Position numbers and translations under genes: made by a program | In this document: one piece after another, positions 3,948 through 21,533 of the stretch | Layout of the letters: each line of letters starts with the position of its first letter | How positions within the stretch are numbered: position 1 is the first letter of the stretch | Source of the DNA: Anaeromyces robustus | Lineage: Eukaryota; Neocallimastigomycota; Neocallimastigomycetes; Neocallimastigales; Neocallimastigaceae | Length of the DNA stretch: 21,687 nt | Reading direction: 5' to 3' | Assembly: GCA_002104895.1 (NCBI GenBank) | Contig: MCFG01000608.1 | Location: 2,501 to 24,187, forward strand | The notes under the pieces: generated by a model | Databases searched by the model: none | The model's input: only the letters and a program-made list of their open reading frames with translations | Told to the model about the DNA's origin: nothing

Positions 3948-3949
<2 letters not shown>

Positions 3950-4020
<71 letters not shown>

Positions 4021-4060
4021 TATAATAATAATAATTATAATAATAATAACAACAACAATA
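3950..4060. repeat. (AAT)n trinucleotide microsatellite
   Basis: About 30 uninterrupted or nearly uninterrupted AAT units, directly continuous with the AAC-containing minisatellite that follows. Reverse-strand frames through it are poly-Ile or poly-Tyr artefacts. Confidence 0.9.
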
Positions 4061-4386
4061 TATAATAACAACAACAAATAATAATAACAACATATAATAA
4101 CAACAACATATAATAACAACAACATATAATAACAACATATAATAACAACATATAATAATAACAACAACATATAATAATAACAACATATAATAACAACATA
4201 TAATAACAACATATAATAATAACAACAACATATAATAATAACAACATATAATAACAACATATAATAACAACATATAATAATAACAACAACATATAATAAT
4301 AACAACATATAATAAAAACAACATATAATAACAACATATAATAATAACATATAATAATAACAACAACATATAATAATAACATATAA
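4061..4386. repeat. Variable minisatellite built from AAC and ATATAAT modules
   Basis: About 20 units of CAACATATAATAA with alternating 13-, 16- and 18/19-bp lengths, created by one versus two AAC triplets and one versus two AAT triplets. A longer cycle recurs near 4151-4320 (long unit, short, short, long). One unit carries AAAAACAAC instead of ATAACAAC (about 4310). The six-frame translations are low-complexity artefacts. Confidence 0.9.
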
Positions 4387-10392: not shown

Positions 10393-11290
10393 ATGGATAA
10401 TGAACAAAAAAAGATAGAAAATTTCTCCAAAACTATTAAATCACTTGAAAACTGGATATATAATGAATTTCCATATCCAGAAGATAATAATTGGATGATA
10501 GAACCATTTGAATCACCTGATTCAAGTTGGTGTAGAGTTACATTAACAAAAGAAGAAAGAGAAGAAAAAGAAAATGAAAAAGAAGACAAAGAAAATGAAA
10601 AAGAAGAAAATGAAAAAGAAAAAAAAGAAAAAGAAAAAGAAAATGAAGAAAATGAAAATGAAAAAGAAGAAAAAGAAAAAGAAAATGAAAAAGAAGAAAA
10701 CAAAAATGAAAATGAAGAAAATGAAAAAGAAAAAGAAGAAAATGAAAAAGAAAAAGAAGAAAATGAAAAAGAAAAAGAAGAAAAAGAAAATGAAAAAGAA
10801 GAAAATGAAAATGAAAAAGAAGAAAATGAAAATGAAAAAGAAGAAAATGAAAATGAAAAAGAAGAAAATGAAAATGAAAAAGAAGAAAATGAAAATGAAA
10901 AAGAAGAAAATGAAAATGAAAAAGAAGAAAATGAAAATGAAAAAGAAGAAAAAGAAGAAAAAGAAGAGGAAGAAAGAGAAGAAGAAATAATAAAATCTAC
11001 CCCGTTAGAAGAAATACCAAAAAGATTTTCACTTTTCGGGGATAATCTTAAAAAGTATAAAAGAATAAAAGAAGAAGAAGAAGAAGAAGAAATAATAAAA
11101 TCTACCCCGTTAGAAGAAATACCAAAAAGGTATTCACTTTTCGGGGATAATCTTAAAAAGTATAAAGGAATTAAAGAAAAAGAAGAAAAAGAAATAATAA
11201 AATCTACCCCGTTAGAAGAAATACCAGAAAGGTATTCACTTTTCGGGGATAATCTTAAAAAGTATAAAGGAATTAAAGAAAAAGAAGAAA

Positions 11291-11321
<31 letters not shown>

Positions 11322-11961
11322 AGAAGGTGATGATGATGATGAAATATTTTCTACTTCCACAGATGTAGAAAATGAAGAAGAAAAAGATAATAATATAAAA
11401 AATTTGGTTTTATTAAATATAATAGAGAGATCTCTTCCCTTATATTTTTTACACAATAGAATAGATTTAATTATACAATCTATTTATTTAGGAATAGATA
11501 TAAATAAAGAAGATATTAATGGTGAAACACTAATTTTCCATATATGTAAAATATGTAAAATTAGAAAAGAAGATTTCAAAATAAAATTAAAAGTAATCAA
11601 ATATTTAATTGATAAGGGGAGTAATATTAATAAAACAAATATTCAGGGAGAAACACCTTTATTTATAGCTGTAAAAAATAATAATTTTAAATTATTGAAA
11701 TTGCTAGTAAATAATGGTGCAGATATAAATATTAAGAATAAAAAAGTGGAAACTGTAATTGATCTTGCAAGAAAACAAAATAGCAAGTTAATTACAAATT
11801 ATTTAGAGAAAAAAAATAATTTGAAAAATCAGTTTCCATTTAAAGATCAAAATGTTTCTTTTACCAAACCAGATGTCCGTAAAAGAAAACATTCAACGAA
11901 TTTTGAAAGAGACAACATTTTGGATTCAATTCCTAGGAAGAGAATCAATAAAAATTCTTAA
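10393..11961 (+). CDS. Acidic repeat and ankyrin-repeat protein, 522 aa
   Basis: An uninterrupted 522-residue frame begins at an ATG after an A-run (good context for AT-rich fungi) and ends TAA. Residues 1-52 are a non-repetitive head rich in Trp (NWIYNEF, NNWMIEPFE, SSWCRV). Residues 53-197 are almost only E, K and N, probably charged helix or disordered, with seven ENENEKE heptads at 137-185. Residues 198-297 hold three near-identical 34-35-residue repeats with core STPLEEIP and SLFGDNLKKYK. Residues about 298-335 are acidic (E-run, then GDDDDE). Residues about 373-475 form ankyrin repeats: NGETLIFHI with an inserted CKIRKEDF, the canonical GETPLFIAV...LLVNNGADIN, and a weak third. The C-terminus has two basic clusters (RKRKH 496-500; PRKR 514-517), a possible bipartite nuclear signal. 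No signal peptide or membrane segment is seen. Ankyrin repeats mediate protein binding; the partner and function are unknown. Ankyrin assignment is firm, the nuclear role is inference. Confidence 0.9.
10801..10947 (+). repeat. 21-bp coding minisatellite, seven copies
   Basis: Seven back-to-back 21-bp units, each encoding ENENEKE, are almost perfect at the DNA level inside the ankyrin-protein gene. They lie within a longer E/K/N-coding tract starting near 10550. The purity implies recent slippage or unequal exchange, so copy number probably varies between strains. Confidence 0.9.
10984..11280 (+). repeat. Three tandem coding repeats of about 102-105 bp
   Basis: Units start at 10984, 11089 and 11191 and are nearly identical in DNA, including the rare G/C clusters CTACCCCG and TTTTCGGGG. 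Each encodes EIIKSTPLEEIP-x-R-[FY]-SLFGDNLKKYK followed by a variable E/K spacer. Differences are few: F or Y before SLF, K or E before R, and spacer length. Confidence 0.95.
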
Positions 11962-12428: not shown

Positions 12429-12610
12429 TATAATATTTATTTATTTATATGTTTATTTATATAATATTTATTTATTTTAATTTTTTTTTTTTTAGACTAA
12501 AGGAAGAGAATACACTTCCATGTTTTTTATTTATTATAAAATAGTTATTAATACATTTAGATTAAGTACATTAATAAAATAGATAAAAAGAAAAATTTCT
12601 ATCTAAAAAA
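11962..12610. other. 3' flank and AT-rich spacer, no gene supported
   Basis: A/T-rich sequence follows the ankyrin gene. (TTTA)n runs occupy 12370-12425 and a related TATAATATTTATTTATTTAT motif recurs to 12475. An alternating TA stretch flanked by TGTACA lies at about 12283-12306. An open frame at 12084-12329 has no recognisable features and is treated as chance. Confidence 0.6.
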
Positions 12611-12613
12611 AAT

Positions 12614-14115
12614 CTACAACATAAATTTAATATAAAGAAAAATATAATAAATTTCTGAAATAATTATAATTTCAGTGTAGGGTACTGTTCGGATTTCACT
12701 CCTCTCTAAATGGTAAAATAATATAAAGCAAAGAAGTAACATCTGAATTAAAGATAGTGTGGTGTCCACTAAACTCTCCCTTGGGCAATCTTCATCATTT
12801 CTAGTAAAAGAAGATGACTCCGAAGGCCCTGTGGTAGAAATAACATCGCGATTCGAGATATTATTATTATGTCTTATCGATTCGACGTCGACGCTCTTGG
12901 TAATAATGGGTGTTGATTTATACCGATCAAATAACAACTCCAAAAAGCTGCATATGACTGGTACTGTTTTTGTTAGATATTCAGCCAACCCCACAAAGTA
13001 TGGAACAGGAAACTCTTTTGAACTTTTATAAAGATGTTCAATTAAATGCTTCCGTTCCCCTTTATCGAAATGCAGCTCTTCTAGAGCTGAAGTTCCACCA
13101 AGAAGGAATAGATATATTTTATGGTTGATATATTTTTTTCATACTCTAAGATTGAGGTGTAATTGTTATATAAAGAGTGTCTCTTTATTTTGTCTGCAAA
13201 TGTGATGAAGAGGTCATTGATGAAATCTAGTGAATTCCATCTAATAAGAGAAAAGAAAGGGCAGTCAAAGATCCAATGTTCAAAGGATTGCTCTCCTTGT
13301 TGACAGCAGGGGCAATAAGAAGGGCATTCTTTTGAAACCTTTCCACTCTTATAGGCTATTTTCGAGTTATATACATATCCACAGCGTAAACGTATTATCC
13401 ATTTGATACCTAGATTAATATGAGGGTATTCATAACCCAACATAATAATATGTTTAGAATCACAAAATTTATATTTATCATAGTTTTTACCTTTAATTCC
13501 TTGTTTTTTAGCAAGATCATTCCAGTACCAATTTTTAATTTCTCTGTATTCACTAATTGACACATTTAGGAGTCTTTCCACTAATGAACTAGATTTAACC
13601 GCTCAAGAAGAGAATCTATTAATTCTTTCATAATGTAAAACAAGATCTTTAATAATACAATGTGAAATTTTCCATTTTTTGAAGCACTTAACTTGTCTAG
13701 CAGCGTAAACTCCTGCGATATGAGGTATCTGAAGGTTTCGAGAGAGAGCATAAGTACTCATATAGCTATACCTTTTATCCAAGGAGACTTTAGGAATTAC
13801 ATACATATTAAGATAGAAGGTAGGTTTTAAATAATCAGGAGGTTCTGTAAAAGACATAGGTTTGATTACCATAGTAACACATTTTTGAATACCAAAAGAC
13901 ATTTCATTTAGATCAGCCCATTTTAAAACTCTTTTTAAAATTTTTTGTAATCTTTTTTCAGAAGGTGCTTAAAGGACGATGTCATCAGCAAAAAATCCAC
14001 CACAGCAGTGTTTATCACCAATTTTAACACCGAGATTTTCACAATTATTTAAAATATCATTAATAAAAAGATTAAAAAGAATGGGTGAAAGAGGACAGCC
14101 TTGTCGAACACCTCT
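12614..14115 (-). pseudogene. 5'-truncated LINE-type retrotransposon (RT, zinc motif, C-terminal module)
   Basis: Reading from 14115 downwards, the frame enters abruptly in RT motif B (RGVRQGCPLSPILFN) and passes CCG-x-FFADD (FADD at 13981-13992, catalytic Asp pair intact). It then meets TAA at 13969-13971, continues in the same frame through a thumb-like MSFGIQKC region, and meets TGA at 13603-13605. It continues in the same frame to 13081 with the Cys/His cluster CPCCQQGEQSFEHW...C (about 13260-13330) typical of the zinc region after LINE RTs. Near 13081-13099 the coding frame shifts by one base into LGGTSALEELHFDKG and runs on to a stop at 12614. That tail has a hydrophobic segment (VPVICSFLELLF) and a VDVESIRH motif. 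Endonuclease and upstream RT are missing, as expected from 5' truncation during target-primed reverse transcription. Two stops and a frameshift make it inactive as assembled. Confidence 0.88.
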
Positions 14116-14310
14116 ATTTATATTATTAATCTTTATTTATATTATTAATTTAAAAGAACATATATGTGACATATATATTACATTAAAGAAAGAAATATAT
14201 AATACATAAAATGTAAATTAAATACAAGTAATAAAAGATACAAAAAATAAATAAAATTTATTACAGATATTAATCAAATTAAAATATTAAATAAAAAAAA
14301 AGGAAAGAAG

Positions 14311-14583
14311 TTAAACTTCTAACTTCTCCCATTCAACGAATGAGATGTCATTCGAATCCGTATCGGAATAAATTCCATGCCTTATCTTTTCGACGTCGAC
14401 GCCCTTGAAGCCGCCCGGAGTGTTCTTATTGTTATTATACCAATTGAGAAGAATCAGAAAGGATATACTCACAATTGGCATAACAACAGTAAGAAAGTAC
14501 GACAGACCCACAATATACGGAACAGGAGACTCAGATGAACCTTTGAAAAGTTGTCCATGCCATTGTCTCCAGAGGACTAAAAA
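14311..14583 (-). pseudogene. Second copy of the LINE C-terminal module
   Basis: The minus-strand frame from 14580 to the stop at 14311 matches the tail of the element at 12614-13099. Compare SPVPYIVGLSYFL with FPVPYFVGLAEYL, a following hydrophobic segment (MPIVSISFLILL), and VDVEKIRH with VDVESIRH. It ends with an acidic tail (SDTDSNDISFVEWEKLEV). The DNA block around VDVE (TTCGACGTCGACGC) is nearly identical in both copies. No RT precedes it: upstream is A/T DNA, so this is a shorter 5'-truncated copy of the same family, or a fragment of a host gene captured by it. The spacer 14116-14310 is featureless A/T. Confidence 0.7.
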
Positions 14584-14649
14584 ATGATAAAATATTTTTT
14601 AAAAATATTGATCAAATTAAAAAGGTTAAATAAATAAAAAAGAAAGTAG

Positions 14650-14720
14650 TCAAACTTTTAACCTCCAATTCAACGAATGGAATACCATTTGAACCCATGT
14701 CAGAATAAATTTATGTCTAT
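14650..14720 (-). pseudogene. Third, minimal copy of the same C-terminal tail
   Basis: The minus strand reads IYSDMGSNGIPFVELEV, clearly the same as IYSDTDSNDISFVEWEKLEV of the neighbouring copy. Both are followed by a similar A/T-rich 3' region containing TTTAATTTGAT. Upstream it stops at a T-run near 14720. Only about 70 bp of coding-like sequence remain. Confidence 0.65.
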
Positions 14721-14797
14721 TTTTTTTTTTTTACTTTCACACTATTGAACAGATATAAATAACATAAATATATATATATATATTTAATTTTTACAAA

Positions 14798-15110
14798 ATT
14801 AAATATTTATTATTTTTATTATTATTTTTATTATTATTTTTATTATTATTTTTTATTATTTTTTATTATTTTTATTATTTTTATTATTTTTATTAATAGA
14901 TTTTTTCATATTACATATTACTAGTATACTGTTTCAAAATTTTTATTATAATTATCAATTAAAATTACTTGTTTAAAAAATTTTTTTTCCATTTTTTATG
15001 CAAAATGATAATTATAATAAAAATTATGCAAAATGATAATTATAATAAAAATTATAATAAAAATTATGCAAAATGATAATTATAATAAAAATTATAATAA
15101 AAATTTTTTT
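14798..15110. repeat. (ATTATTTTT)n tract and ATGCAAAATGATAATTATAA minisatellite
   Basis: Positions 14798-14895 are ATTATTTTT-type repeats. ATGCAAAATG starts at 14998, 15026 and 15066, within units of 28 bp, the second extended by a 12-bp ATTATAATAAAA insertion. This lies downstream of the 3' end of the LRR gene. Confidence 0.85.
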
Positions 15111-15227: not shown

Positions 15228-15401
15228 TTATAAATTTTCATAATAACCTGTAAGAATTTCTATACCACTATTTTCAAATTTTGAAGGAATTGATTTAATA
15301 TCTTCATTATTTCTTAAATCTCTATAGAACAAATTAATTATAATATGAAAATTAATTAAAATATAATTATTATTATTATTTATTATTATTATTATTTATT
15401 A

Positions 15402-15437
<36 letters not shown>

Positions 15438-17975
15438 AGTTATTATATTATAAAATAATATTATAAATTAGTTATTATAAGTAATATATATTTATTTAAA
15501 TATTTACATTAAGTTTTTTAAGTTTCATAATTCCAGATGGAATATCTGTAATTTTGTTGTTATATAATATTCTATATATTAATTTGATTATTTAATTTTT
15601 TAAAACAAAATACAAGAATATTATTTAAGGAAATATTAAATTATTATAAAATGTAAATGACGAAAATATTTTAATTAATTTATTAGTTTATCAATATTAT
15701 TAACTAATTATTATTATTCGTTTTTATAAATATATAAATATTTACAATTCTTGAAGATTATAAAATTTCAAAAATCCTGTAATTTTAGATAAGTTATTAT
15801 TACTTAAATCACTGTATATTGTAATGTGTTGAGTTGATTTTTTCATTTTTTATTATAAAAATTAGAATAAATATAATAAAATAAATATAAAAATTAGAAT
15901 AAATATAAAAAATAAATATAAAAATATTTTAAATGGAAAAATAAATTTAAAAAATAAATATAAAAATATTTTAAATGGAAAAATAAATTTAAAAAATTAA
16001 TTATTATAATTATCAATATTTACAGTGATTTAAGATTTTTAAGTATATTTAATGGATATGGCATAGTAGAAAATGAATTTTTACCTAATAATCTATATAT
16101 TAATTTAATTAATTTTTTAAAAGAAAATACAAAAAAAAATATATTTAAGACAATATTAAAATATTAGAAAATTGTAAATGATAATAATATTTTTAAGTGT
16201 ATTTTCTCTTTTTTTAATTTATTAATATTACTAACTAATTATTAGAATTCGTTATATAAATATTTACAATACTTCAAGATTACTTAAATCGTCAAGTCCT
16301 TTAAAATTTTCTAAACCATTATCACTTAAATCTCTGTATATTGCAATGAGTTGAGTTGATTTTTTCATTTTTTATTATAAAAATTAGAATAAATATAATA
16401 ACATGAAAATAAAAATATTTTAAAAGGAAAAATAATTTCTATTAAAAAATTAATTATAACTATAAATATTTACAATGATTTAAGTTGTGTAAGTTTCAAA
16501 AGTTCAGATGGTACTGTAGATAATTTATTTCCACTCAGTATTCTATATATTAATTTAATTAATTTTTTAAAATAATATACATACAAAAACATATTTAAGA
16601 TAATATTAAAATATTAAAAAATTATAAATGAAAATAATATTTTAATTTTATTTTATTCTTTTTTTTAATTTATCAATATTATTAACTAATTATTAATATT
16701 CTATTTATTATAAATATTTACAATACTTCAAGACTTCTAAGTTTCCAAATATCTTCAAGGTTAATTGAAATATTATTACTTAAATTTCTGTAAAATGATG
16801 TTTATTGATTTAATTAGTTCATTTTTATAATAAAATTTAGAATAAATAATAAAATAAAAATAAAAATTATTTTTATTTGAAAAAAATTTTTTATTAAAAA
16901 ATTAATTATTATAATTTATCAATATTTACAATGATCTAAGTTTATTAAGTTGCTCAAGTCCAGAAGGTATTTCAGATAATTTATTTCCACTCAATGATCT
17001 ATATATTAATTTGATTAAACAATTTTTTAAAAGAATATACAATAATATATTTAAAATATTTGAAAATTGTAAATTAAATAATATTTTGAACTTTATTTTT
17101 TTTTGTTAAAATTTATCAATATTAATTAATTATTAATAGTCATATTTATAAGTAATTTACAGTTCTTGAAGTTTACTAAGTTTATTAATTTCAGAAAATT
17201 TAACTAACATATTATTATTTAAATCTCTGTATAATGAAGCATATTGATTTTATTATTTTATTTTTTATAATAAAAATAAGAATAAATAATAAAATAAAAA
17301 TAAAAATATTTTAAATTTAAAAGTAATTTTTATTAAAAAATTAATTATTATAATTATCAATATTTACAATGATTTAAGTTTATTAAGTTGTACAAGTCCT
17401 GACGGTATATCAAATAATCCATTTCCACTCAATGATCTATATATTAATTTGATTAAATAATTTTTTAAAAGAATATACAATAATATATTTAAGACAATAT
17501 TAAAATATTAGAAAATTGTAAATTAAATAATATTTTGAACTTTTTTTTTGTTAAAATTTATCAATATTAATTAATTATTAATAGTAATGTTTATTAATAA
17601 TTTACAATTCTTGAAGATTACTAAGTTTCTCAATATTTGGAAAGTCATCTAATCTATTATTACTTATATCTCTGCATAATGAAGTATATTTATTTGATTA
17701 TTTTATTTTATAAAATAAAATTTAGAATAAATTTAGTAGATTAAAAATAAAAATATTTTAATTTGAAAAAAATAAATTGGTTTAAAAATAATTAATTATT
17801 TTATTTATAAATATTTAATCGTTAATATTCATATCTATATGTACTTACAATTTCAAAAGGTTTGTCAAATTAGTAATCCCGGTTACATCTTTAACATAAC
17901 AATCTTTTATTGTTCTTCATAATGTAATGCATTAAATTTATTTATTTGTATTTCAAATAAAAAATAAATATATTA

Positions 17976-18055
<80 letters not shown>

Positions 18056-18762
18056 ACAATTATTATTTTTTTTTTTGTGATTTTTAAATGTAATGAATAT
18101 ATATTTAAAAATATAAAAATCAAATAAAAATATAACAATATATATCTATACAAAACTAATTAAAAATGACTATTATATTATGATTAACAAAAATTTTCTT
18201 TATTTTTCTTTTATTTACAATTCTTCTAAAGTAATTATTTTACTAATAATAGATGGAATTCCACTAGTATAATCTTGATCATGAATTTCTCTGTAATAAA
18301 TAAAAATTAGTTATATATTAATATATATAATATTCTTTATTTCAATTAATATAAATTCTTTATATATATTTACTTACAAACTATATATATTATTTTCACT
18401 ATTCATTTTACATATAAAATTATTTGATTCACAATTTTTACAAACTTCCTCTTTTAATTTATCACATGTCAAGCATTTATTAATATTATTTTGTTCATAT
18501 GAACTTTTATGATAATTAAATAATATATTATATTATATTATATATTATATATTTGAATATATCAATTATTAAATTATTTATTATATTCTATTTTTAATTT
18601 ATAATTATAAATTTATAATAATAATTTAATTATATAATTACACTGAAACATTTTCATTATCAATTGTATTCGGAATAGACTCCAGACAATTATAAAAAAT
18701 AAAAAAAGTTTTTTTATAATTAGTAATAACAAAAATTATTAATATTAATATTATTATTATTA

Positions 18763-18803
<41 letters not shown>

Positions 18804-18820
18804 TATTATTATTATTATTA

Positions 18821-18858
<38 letters not shown>

Positions 18859-21100
18859 TATTATTTATTTTATTTTCATTTATCTTTATTAATAATTAAT
18901 TATTGATTATTGATTTTGAATAATATATTATTCTTTTATATACTAACAATCTTTTAAGATTAATAAGATTTCCAATTGTTTCAGGAATTGAAGAGATTTT
19001 ATCATTTAGTAAATATCTTTATAATATTATCAGTTAATTGACAAAATATTAAAATATAATAATAATATAAAAAAAATGTAATATATTTATTTTATTTAAG
19101 TATATAAGTATATATAATAAAATTAATAGTATAAACATAAAGAAATATGATATTTTTATTATTTATTATAATTTACAATTCTTTTATGGATGTTAACTCA
19201 AAAATAACATCTGGAATACCCGAACTAAAATCTTGATTATTAATTTTTCTATAATATACAATTATAATGAATCATTTTTAATATAAATATTATATTTTTT
19301 TTTTGTCTTTCAAGTATAATAATTTATATAAATATATATAATCTTTAATATTTATCAATTAAACATAATAATAAAACAAATTTACAAGTGATATATTTTG
19401 TCACTACTATTAACTACACATTCAAAGTCATCGCCATTACATGAAGGACATATTTGATTTTTTAATTCATCACACGAATAACAATAACTTTTATTATTGT
19501 TTTCGAAGGATCTATTAAAATAATTCATTTATAGGTATAATTGATATAATTGATATAATTGACATATATATATATAGGAATATATTTTTTAATTAAATTA
19601 ATTATAATTAAATGATGTATTTGATTTAATAAAAATTTTAGTAGTTTTCTTAAAAAATATCTTACACATATGTTTTCCCAACAAGTTTTGATGGTAATTC
19701 ATTTATACAATTATTATCTAAAACTCTTTAATAAAGATTTTTTAAAATAGTTTTTTTACAAAATTTAATTTAATGAATAAATAATGTATCATTAATACAA
19801 TATTTTATGTATTAAAAATAAAAATATATTATATTCAAAAAAATTATATAATAAAACTTTTTACTTACAATTCTTTTAATTTTTTTAAATTTCCAATTTC
19901 ATTAGGAACTATATAATAAAACTTTTTACTTACAATTCTTTTAATTTTTTTAAATTTCCAATTTCATTAGGAACTGACTTTAAATTATTTTTTTTTAATA
20001 ATCTGTAAATTAACACAATAAAAAAATATAAAAAATTTAATGCATAAATAAAAAAATAACAAAGTATTCATATTAATAATTTTAATTAATAATATGAAGT
20101 ATTTCAACTATATATTTATGATTCTATTATCATTTTTAATGTTTTTTTATTAAATATACTAACAAATTTTCAAGATTAGAAAGATTTCCAATTGATGTAG
20201 GAATTGATGTTAATTTACAATTAGTTAAATATCTATTATATATAATATAATATATGTTCGATTTGACGATAACATAATAAATATATATTATATTATTAAT
20301 TAATAAATTTATTAATATTAAATTTATTATAATATTAAATATATTAAATAATAAATTTAAAAATTTAAATAAATATTCATATATGAAAATTATTAAATCT
20401 ATTCTTTTTATTTAATAATTATTTTGTATTATATATATATTTTCTTACAAACTAATAAGTGCTTTAAGATTTCCAATGGATGAAGGAAGAGAACTTATAT
20501 CATTATTACTTAATTTTCTAAATATAAAGTGTATTACATAAAAAAAAATAGTAATAAGTTTAATTACATTTAAATTAAAAAAAAAATTAAAATAATAGAA
20601 AAATAAAATATTAACGAATTATATTATTATTTTTAAAAATTTTAAATTTTATTTCATCAATAACTTACAAATATTTGAGATTATTGAGTTTTCCAATATC
20701 CTTAGGAATAGTTGTTAATTTATTTGTTCTTAGATCTCTATTTATAAATATAAATATATTATTTTTATGGATTATTCAGTAATTTGTTTTTATTTTTATC
20801 ATTATTCAATTTAAAATAATATACTCTAATATATTTTTCTAATGATGAATTATTAATATTAATTATAAATGTTATATTTTATTTTTTAATAAACTTACAA
20901 TCTTTTAAGTTTCTTAAGATTTACGATTTTTTGAGGAATTGATGAAATTTTATCATTAATTAAATATCTTTTTGTATTATTAATTAGAAAATTTAAAAAT
21001 ACAAAAAAAATAATAATAAATTTAATTATATATTATTTAAATAAAATAATTTAAATATATGTATAATTTAAATTATAAACACTTATTTATTTATCATAAC

Positions 21101-21152
<52 letters not shown>

Positions 21153-21533
21153 TTATTATTATTATTATCGATTTATTATATATAAACATACAAATCCTTT
21201 AAAGAAGTTATACTGAAAATATTATCTGGAATACCACTACTAAAATCTTGATTATTAATTAATCTATATATAAAAATAATTTATAAAAAAATTAATGATC
21301 CATTTTAATTATAGATATAAATTAAATAATTGAAATATATTTAATAATTATTAAGAAATATTTATATTATTGATTACTAACAAAGAATATATATTTCCAT
21401 TTTCATCAGTTTTACATTGAAAATTATCATTACCACATGAACTGCAAATTTGTTTTTCACTTTGTTACATGTAAGAGTTGCTGCAAGAGCAACTGAAATA
21501 TATGATAAAATAAATAATAGAATTTTTATTCAT
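15228..21533 (-). CDS. 26-exon secreted leucine-rich-repeat protein, one LRR per exon
   Basis: Exons, in reading order: 21533-21382, 21263-21192, 20967-20899, 20737-20669, 20517-20449, 20232-20164, 20002-19934, 19725-19666, 19511-19386, 19248-19177, 19016-18948, about 18707-18642, 18503-18378, 18290-18219, 17914-17849, 17671-17606, 17436-17368, 17226-17161, 16998-16930, 16787-16722, 16542-16474, 16333-16268, 16092-16024, 15811-15746, 15571-15508, 15321-15228 (TAA). Lengths are mostly 66, 69 or 72 bp, each one LRR such as DLRTNKLTTIPKDIGKLNNL. Clear borders are GT(A/T)A...AG, with the intron inside a Leu codon (TT|A or TT|G), phase 2. Exons 1, 9 and 13 encode Cys modules; exons 2, 10 and 14 a special first LRR with DxxSGIP; exons 8 and 12 short LRRs. 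Exon 1 has a signal peptide ending ALA. There is no C-terminal membrane segment, so the product (about 660 residues) is probably secreted; the ligand is unknown. As assembled, exon 1 has two compensating A indels, exon 12 lacks an AG acceptor, and exon 25 ends out of phase, so assembly error or pseudogenisation must be considered. Confidence 0.82.
15365..15436. repeat. (TTA)n microsatellite in the last LRR intron
   Basis: About 22 TTA units with TTTATTA variants between exons 25 and 26. Confidence 0.85.
15508..17671 (-). repeat. Five-fold tandem duplication of a two-exon LRR unit
   Basis: Exons 16-25 alternate strictly: type A, 66 bp, 22 residues, mostly DLSNN-type without the IP motif and ending LQEL or LEVL; type B, 69 bp, 23 residues, SLSGNKLSEIPSGL-type ending LKSL. 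B exons begin at 17436, 16998, 16542, 16092 and 15571, giving periods of 438, 456, 450 and 521 bp. The introns are homologous too: the one preceding each B exon ends in TTAATATATAG and contains related ATATTCTTTTAAAAAATT and ATTTTAATATT sequences. The copies have diverged, so the amplification is not very recent. Confidence 0.9.
17975..18053. repeat. (AAAT)n microsatellite in LRR intron 14
   Basis: About 19 perfect AAAT units in the 304-bp intron between exons 14 and 15. The long hydrophobic reverse-strand frame here is a repeat artefact. Confidence 0.9.
18378..18503 (-). other. Exon 13: third Cys module
   Basis: This is another 126-bp, 42-residue exon with the same Cys spacing (CLTC, CKNC, FIC) and ENNIYSL before the first LRR of block 3. 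The N-terminal part (SYEQNN) parallels SFENNN in exon 9, showing that the module was duplicated together with the neighbouring short LRR exon. Confidence 0.85.
18745..18857. repeat. (TTA)n microsatellite in LRR intron 11
   Basis: About 35 TTA units with ATATTA interruptions, located in the intron before exon 12, whose acceptor is missing. Confidence 0.9.
19386..19511 (-). other. Exon 9: second Cys module
   Basis: This 126-bp exon encodes 42 residues with C-x2-C-x7-C-x2-C-x6-C (CYSC, CPSC, FEC), then NSSDKIYHL leading into the first LRR of block 2. It starts after AATAG and ends at GTAAAT, phase 2 on both sides. The preceding short LRR exon ends in GT| so the junction codon is Val. Confidence 0.85.
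19845..19975 (-). repeat. Perfect 65-bp tandem duplication across an exon-intron border
   Basis: Two identical copies (19846-19910 and 19911-19975) contain the last 40 bp of LRR exon 7 plus its GTAAGT donor and adjoining intron. The exon copy next to the full exon (ending 19934) is functional. The extra partial copy is preceded by TATATAG, which could act as an acceptor, but its inclusion would shift the frame and give a stop. Identity over 65 bp indicates a very recent event. Confidence 0.9.
21102..21168. repeat. (TTA)n microsatellite in LRR intron 2
   Basis: About 21 TTA units between exons 2 and 3, with one TTTTATTA interruption. Confidence 0.85.
21382..21533 (-). other. Exon 1: signal peptide and first Cys module
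   Basis: The ATG at 21533-21531 is followed after four codons by a stretch that, in the next frame, reads ILLFILSYISVALAATLTC, a convincing signal peptide. The original frame then resumes at QICSSCGNDNFQC. The switch corresponds to one A too many in the run at 21523-21527 and one A too few in the run at 21453-21457. The two cancel, leaving 152 bp (50 codons plus 2 bases), exactly right for the phase-2 donor GTTAGT. As assembled, the ATG frame stops at ATG-TAA. The module lacks the first of the five Cys. Confidence 0.75.

Follow-up and report, generated by a model that had tools for sequence, protein, structure and literature searches.

Leucine-rich repeats set out one per exon between phase-2 introns in a probable gene of the gut fungus Anaeromyces robustus

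Does a stretch of fungal DNA that drew attention by a series of short, regularly bordered coding blocks carry a real gene and, if so, how did its many similar exons arise and what might their product do? The region in question is the minus strand of positions 15228-21533 in 21,687 nucleotides of DNA from the anaerobic herbivore gut fungus Anaeromyces robustus (contig MCFG01000608.1, positions 2,501 to 24,187; hereafter the window), which correspond to G000:C566:2501-24187 of an assembly whose 769 contigs total 70.17 Mb. P- and C-numbers, such as P0001 and C29, are the protein and contig labels of this analysis, in which the window copy lies on C566. Our analysis points to a positive answer to the first part of the question: we consider it likely that this strand carries a real A. 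robustus gene, probably for a secreted leucine-rich repeat (LRR) protein.

The argument is centered on a chain of 22 consecutive internal exons from 21263 down to 15746, all of which are open, preceded by AG, followed by GT and in phase 2 at both ends; 20 of them code for an LRR and two for a cysteine-rich (Cys) segment. They are headed by exon 1 (21382-21533), which combines a leader with the first Cys segment, and run on through the LRR exons 2 (21192-21263; 72 bp), 3 to 7 (20899-20967, 20669-20737, 20449-20517, 20164-20232 and 19934-20002; 69 bp each) and 8 (19666-19725), a module-ending LRR exon of 60 bp, for which P0001 has a 60-bp match at C358:34823-34764. The second Cys segment, exon 9 (19386-19511; 126 bp, with 126-bp counterparts in P0001 and P0003), is followed by the LRR exons 10 (19177-19248; 72 bp) and 11 (18948-19016; 69 bp), and the third, exon 12 (18378-18503; 126 bp), by exons 13 (18219-18290; 72 bp) and 14 (17849-17914; 66 bp). 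Thereafter, exons 15-23 (15746-17671) alternate between 66 and 69 bp, with exons 15-19 at 17671-17606, 17436-17368, 17226-17161, 16998-16930 and 16787-16722, and exons 20-23 at 16542-16474, 16333-16268, 16092-16024 and 15811-15746. A terminal exon of 94 nt with the stop codon (15228-15321) closes the gene; the same exon is found on C29, and counterparts occur on C89, C171, C358 and C345. Thus, the length is 66, 69 or 72 bp in 19 of the 20 LRR exons (six, ten and three instances, respectively), the single 60-bp exon making up the remainder.

The internal exons are separated by 21 GT-AG introns of 87-444 bp, with a guanine-cytosine content of 8.8% in the introns against 22.1% in the internal exons. 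At residue 2, every LRR exon has L, I or V, and at residue 5 every one has N, D, Q or C, while residue 7 is hydrophobic in 18/20. In the joined translation, 20 of the 22 internal exons end in a split Leu codon; the 60-bp exon 8 instead ends in a split Val codon and exon 11, located ahead of a Cys exon, in a split Phe codon. This is the arrangement defined from rice genes: one exon for each LRR, with the first Leu of xxLxLxx interrupted by a phase-2 intron (PMC3050792). A strict regular-expression scan, which called for AG, phase 2, a stop-free 57-78 bp with an LRR-like start and end, and GT, returned 19 matches on the gene strand, whereas 200 dinucleotide shuffles averaged 0.025 matches and never gave more than one. 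On the other strand of the window it returned one match (plus strand; also on C29), and in the remainder of the window none on either strand; further afield, C89 and C171 gave two antisense matches each, and one stray plus-strand match lies at C89:122209. A Pfam scan of the joined exons recovered LRR_4 (E-value 7.7e-46), LRR_8 (1.9e-39), LRR_14 and LRR_1 above their curated cut-offs, whereas at E-values up to 0.001 neither a kinase family nor the fungal dockerin CBM_10 (PF02013) was matched. Hence, the preliminary description of this DNA was right in placing one LRR in each exon with the intron in phase 2 inside the Leu codon and in holding chance to be improbable, and the Pfam search that it had suggested came out in its favor.

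That description had also expected standard gene callers to miss such a gene, and in this respect it was mistaken. Three deposited A. robustus proteins, all annotated as ‘L domain-like protein’, match paralogous loci on C358 and C171 at every residue (P0001, 1053/1053 residues; P0018, 346/346; P0003, 573/573) and have exons of the kind seen in the window gene, so that the architecture is already present in public gene models. The mapping admitted GT-AG introns of 25-900 bp and took the first exact path, with the consequence that single borders could slide. Introns are in phase 2 in 30/34 cases in P0001, 14/15 in P0018 and 20/22 in P0003; the exceptions fall in the P0001 tail past residue 747, behind the 23-bp exon in P0018 and at the final two introns of P0003. 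The mapping shows agreement with public annotation and does not prove splicing. The P0001 model itself is likely mis-joined: at C358:29332-27922 it leaves the LRR gene and goes on with reverse-transcriptase sequence (RVT_1 at residues 752-853). Between loci, the ratio of amino-acid-changing to silent substitution rates (dN/dS) is 0.346 for the shared first module of the window gene and C358 (152 codons; 20 silent and 30 other differences). On five exons it is 0.282 for the window and C358, 0.275 for the window and C345, and 0.368 for C358 and C345, a pair with few differences. As computed from these alignments, the values indicate constraint in the proposed frame.

The window gene belongs to a wider family. 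When a Cys exon was used as query, matches to the Cys part were counted by eye on 12 contigs, including C566 and C29, in 55 rows. We examined nine relatives drawn from the best 120 of 2114 matches, namely eight A. robustus proteins labeled ‘L domain-like’ or ‘RNI-like’ (P0001, P0002, P0003, P0005, P0018, P0019, P0034 and P0079) and P0004. A regular expression for the module-ending motif recognized all but P0079 (8/9, or 7/8 of the A. robustus set), and one for the Cys pattern recognized P0001, P0002, P0003, P0004 and P0018 (5/9, or 4/8 of that set); P0005, P0019, P0034 and P0079, which the latter did not take, start with a similar Cys segment by eye. Like the window gene, P0001, P0003, P0018 and P0005 have mostly equal exon lengths and phase-2 introns. 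Several A. robustus relatives differ from it in what follows the repeats: P0005 and P0019 have a CotH domain according to Pfam, and the C-terminal parts of P0034, P0079 and P0002 have no Pfam match at an E-value of 1e-5. In P0034 and P0079, the LRR module is joined to a C-terminal part of about 700 residues; that of P0034 was likewise without a sequence match among solved structures at E-values up to 1. P0004 carries a GH1 domain and, because its 908 residues sit on contigs no longer than 3043 bp, is without the usual introns; it may represent a transcript. In P0005, the mapping of residues 77-467 onto DNA yielded phase 2 in 10/10 introns, with LRR exons of 69 and 72 bp (the first of them truncated where the mapping begins), module ends of 60 and 63 bp and a Cys exon of 129 bp. 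Past its last phase-2 intron the sequence runs unbroken for at least 451 nt to the end of the locus, and the CotH match starts inside this part, at residue 379. Scores of P0002, P0004, P0019 and P0034 against NCBIfam models of LRR effectors lie far below the curated cut-offs and are taken as generic LRR similarity. Contamination by plant or bacterial DNA is contradicted by 150 CBM_10 matches above cut-off in the same genome (150 scored of 683 candidates) versus none in 14 control genomes. With the beginning of P0002 as query, P0121 and P0122 were matched as well, two records labeled Menopon gallinae that are unverified contaminant entries.

A structure model of P0002 (mean predicted local distance difference test score 72.7, predicted template modeling score 0.54; confident at residues 21-410) displays LRR strands and helices in two runs, with a Cys segment ahead of either run. 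The high-ranking solved folds matched by it are Leptospira LRR proteins, SHOC2, RSU1 and the lamprey variable lymphocyte receptors (VLRs), with root-mean-square deviations near 10 for the long alignments and of 2-3 for many of those that cover one module. The likeness seen is one of fold, and such matches to a model are informative about the fold and not about a partner. Lamprey VLRs, which join Cys caps to LRR cassettes, are assembled somatically, a process for which no parallel was seen here. Because of the leader, the Cys segments and the domain fusions, the module would most likely serve as an exchangeable extracellular binding part, with protein or glycan partners at plant or cell surfaces.

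Several observations weigh against the reading of the locus as a gene for such a secreted protein and against what we build on it. Exon 1 (21533-21382) is not open in the window contig, the block at about 18691-18642, similar to a module-ending exon, lacks an AG acceptor on its 5′ side, and a late LRR exon of 64 nt (15571-15508) is out of frame in both the window and its near-identical copy on C29, no difference from which is listed there. The splicing of the window copy is deduced from its sequence, the deposited models contain irregular exons as well (45, 51, 78, 96, 23 and 31 bp), and no family other than LRR families exceeds the Pfam cut-offs in the joined exons. Moreover, the structure model is of the paralog P0002 and not of the window protein, the joint from LRR to CotH was read on DNA in one gene, P0005 (1/1 of the fusion genes examined), and beyond A. 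robustus the search with the P0002 start met no other named gut fungus (9 matches, 166 candidates), P0002 and P0005 being the only named gut-fungal proteins among the nine.

The blemishes raise the question of whether this is a recently dying pseudogene that has inherited the exon structure but from which a full protein is no longer made. The copy on C29, which may be an uncollapsed haplotype or a recent duplication, matches the window at 98.7% identity over 9252 alignment columns (51 mismatches, 45 gap openings), and there exon 1 (149367-149213) is open, has 155 nt that include the Cys segment and starts with a leader judged hydrophobic by eye. From position 15100 up, 29 differences between the copies are listed, 21 of them single-base indels; four fall in exon 1, at window positions 21529, 21523, 21521 and 21457, and none in the other listed exons. 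The differences of exon 1 in the window contig still speak for decay, as do the acceptor-less relic, which has a 63-bp counterpart in P0001 (C358:32966-32904), and a second module shorter than in P0001; both the relic and the short module look like losses. The late exon, which is 5 nt shorter than its 69-nt counterpart on C89 and whose state is common to both copies, speaks for decay as well. Nor did a deposited protein for the window gene turn up: no near-identical one was among the 120 listed of 2114 matches (candidates of about 341-1085 residues) or, with exons 9-19 as the query, among 3 matches (candidates of about 159-505 residues), ranges that leave out shorter fragments and 5′-part fragments below 341 residues. 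Against this stand, besides the open exon 1 of C29, the 22/22 internal exons that are open and in phase, a frame that survives the loss or skipping of phase-2 exons, and dN/dS values of 0.28-0.35 to the other loci, though these average over the whole history. On balance, we regard a dying pseudogene as a serious but less probable account, and continue with the reading of a real gene. The preliminary description, which had not seen the relic, the out-of-frame late exon, the indels of exon 1, the near-identical copy or the CotH and GH1 relatives, spoke of 26 coding blocks of 66, 69 or 72 bp with longer Cys exons; the chain of short blocks bordered by AG and GT stands, but their sizes are less uniform than it held, with exons of 60, 64 and 94 nt and the relic. 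A recount of one first exon, 22 regular internal exons, the 64-nt and 94-nt exons and the relic gives 26, which may be the source of its number.

Two side observations concern these copies. Most of the 51 mismatches between C566 and C29 seem to lie downstream of the gene (12482-15100), with few substitutions listed in the gene region. At 19845-19975, Tandem Repeats Finder (TRF) reports a perfect tandem copy of 65 bp that comprises half of an LRR exon together with the donor site; the half-exon copy (19937-19869) has a donor and, as read, no usable acceptor, and was not counted as an exon.

How, then, did the array of similar exons come about? Over 15951-17817, TRF reports a tandem repeat of period 445 (4.2 copies, 77% matches) that comprises two exons and two introns, and shifted self-matches of the window agree with this unit. 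In a comparison at an E-value of 1e-6 with the low-complexity filter off, the introns that precede 66-bp exons (i14, i16, i18, i20, i22) match one another in 10/10 pairs and those that precede 69-bp exons (i15, i17, i19, i21) in 6/6, with 77-94% identity over the matched parts within a class and no match across classes. Elsewhere in the gene the introns are less alike, and i3, i6, i8, i9 and i12 match no other. Since the two intron classes keep step with the 66- and 69-bp exons and with the 445-bp unit, the sequence indicates that the 3′ array expanded by duplication of a unit of two exons and two introns of about 445 bp. Repeated insertion of introns at a preferred site of an intronless LRR array, in place of exon-intron duplication, would account for their single codon position and for the five unmatched introns; the two similarity classes and the tandem unit, on the other hand, are explained directly by duplication, and we think insertion unlikely. 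That the exons are a chance or low-complexity artefact of an AT-rich tandem repeat, in or beside which exons 15-23 lie in a very AT-rich region, can be set aside as exceedingly improbable in view of the 19 scan matches against 0.025 in shuffles, the constraint in the proposed frame and the like exons in deposited proteins, which we judged sufficient.

Neighboring 66-bp exons differ at 70 of 208 amino-acid-changing sites compared to 7 of 44 silent sites (Fisher p 0.02, uncorrected and with comparisons that share exons), and neighboring 69-bp exons at 38 of 151 compared to 10 of 47 (p 0.70). In three comparisons of 66-bp neighbors, the proportion of amino-acid-changing differences (0.24-0.38) exceeds the divergence of the introns that follow (0.04-0.18). 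These differences are at most a hint of diversification.

We propose that the product is a probably secreted protein with as many as three modules, in each of which a Cys-rich segment is followed by LRRs. Each LRR is one exon, and the phase-2 borders of the internal exons lie within the first Leu of LxxLxLxxN. Owing to the phase-2 symmetry, each gain or loss of an exon is harmless to the frame, and duplicated, lost or skipped exons would likewise leave the register of the solenoid intact; the 3′ part grew by tandem duplication of exon-intron units. In the relatives, similar modules stand ahead of other domains, with exon shuffling as the presumed route. More tentatively, one might see here an exon-cassette system, in which the duplication, diversification and perhaps alternative splicing of symmetric LRR and Cys exons yield a changing set of extracellular binding solenoids, and whole modules are shuffled via the phase-2 boundary; we hold this possibility to be conceivable but doubtful.

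Some animal LRR genes with a correspondence of exons to repeats provide one parallel to this arrangement. The plant parallel that had been drawn at the outset is substantiated by the rice LRR-kinase genes, in which phase-2 introns split the first Leu of xxLxLxx and so separate the LRRs, the short exons are read as a sign of exon duplication, more than half of the genes have one or two exons, 72-nt exons dominate the complex ones and kinase domains are present (PMC3050792). The intron site and phase are alike in the window gene, which differs in using mainly 66 and 69 bp and in having no kinase match. In Tetrahymena, a ciliate, LRR genes are described with tandem uniform 90-bp exons between phase-2 introns that arose in successive expansions, and the authors were aware of no other eukaryote with such uniformity (PMC6564038); these exons measure exactly 90 bp, as against 60-72 and 126 bp in the window gene, and the parts of that account consulted mention neither Cys segments nor enzyme fusions. 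A survey that included 49 fungal genomes reports LRR receptors to be almost absent from fungi and counts 15 secreted LRR proteins from 10 species (PMC2939053), and a table of PMC12421816 has one protein that combines LRR with two CBM10. The sections consulted of four papers on animal receptors or insulin-like peptides (PMC4561518, PMC8286064, PMC7357564, PMC11863921) are silent on the phase of LRR exons. We found no literature that pairs Anaeromyces robustus with the leucine-rich repeat and, in a literature mostly without subscription papers, no description of a phase-2 architecture of one LRR per exon in a fungus. What we describe is a plant-like gene architecture in a gut fungus, a variant for which our searches met no fungal precedent and of which gene models are already deposited.

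The remainder of the window holds other features. At 10393-11961 (plus strand), an open reading frame (ORF) of 522 residues in a single frame codes for ankyrin repeats (Ank_4, E-value 3.8e-14) and is preceded by a long Glu/Lys-rich repeat region with periods of 21 and 102 bp (TRF). At 13081-13902 (minus strand), two ORFs of 166 and 99 residues resemble the reverse-transcriptase tail of P0001 by eye and have no Pfam match. The interval 3948-4386 is taken up by an AT-rich minisatellite in which periods of 13, 45 and 61 bp interlock (TRF), and searches of the window with Rfam (gathering scores) and ARAGORN gave no match.

A family of one-repeat-per-exon Cys/LRR proteins in a gut fungus, two of them with CotH, would add an independent case of this gene architecture. 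Such a family would make testable both the growth of the exon arrays and the binding of the repeats to plant material, microbes or other fungal proteins.

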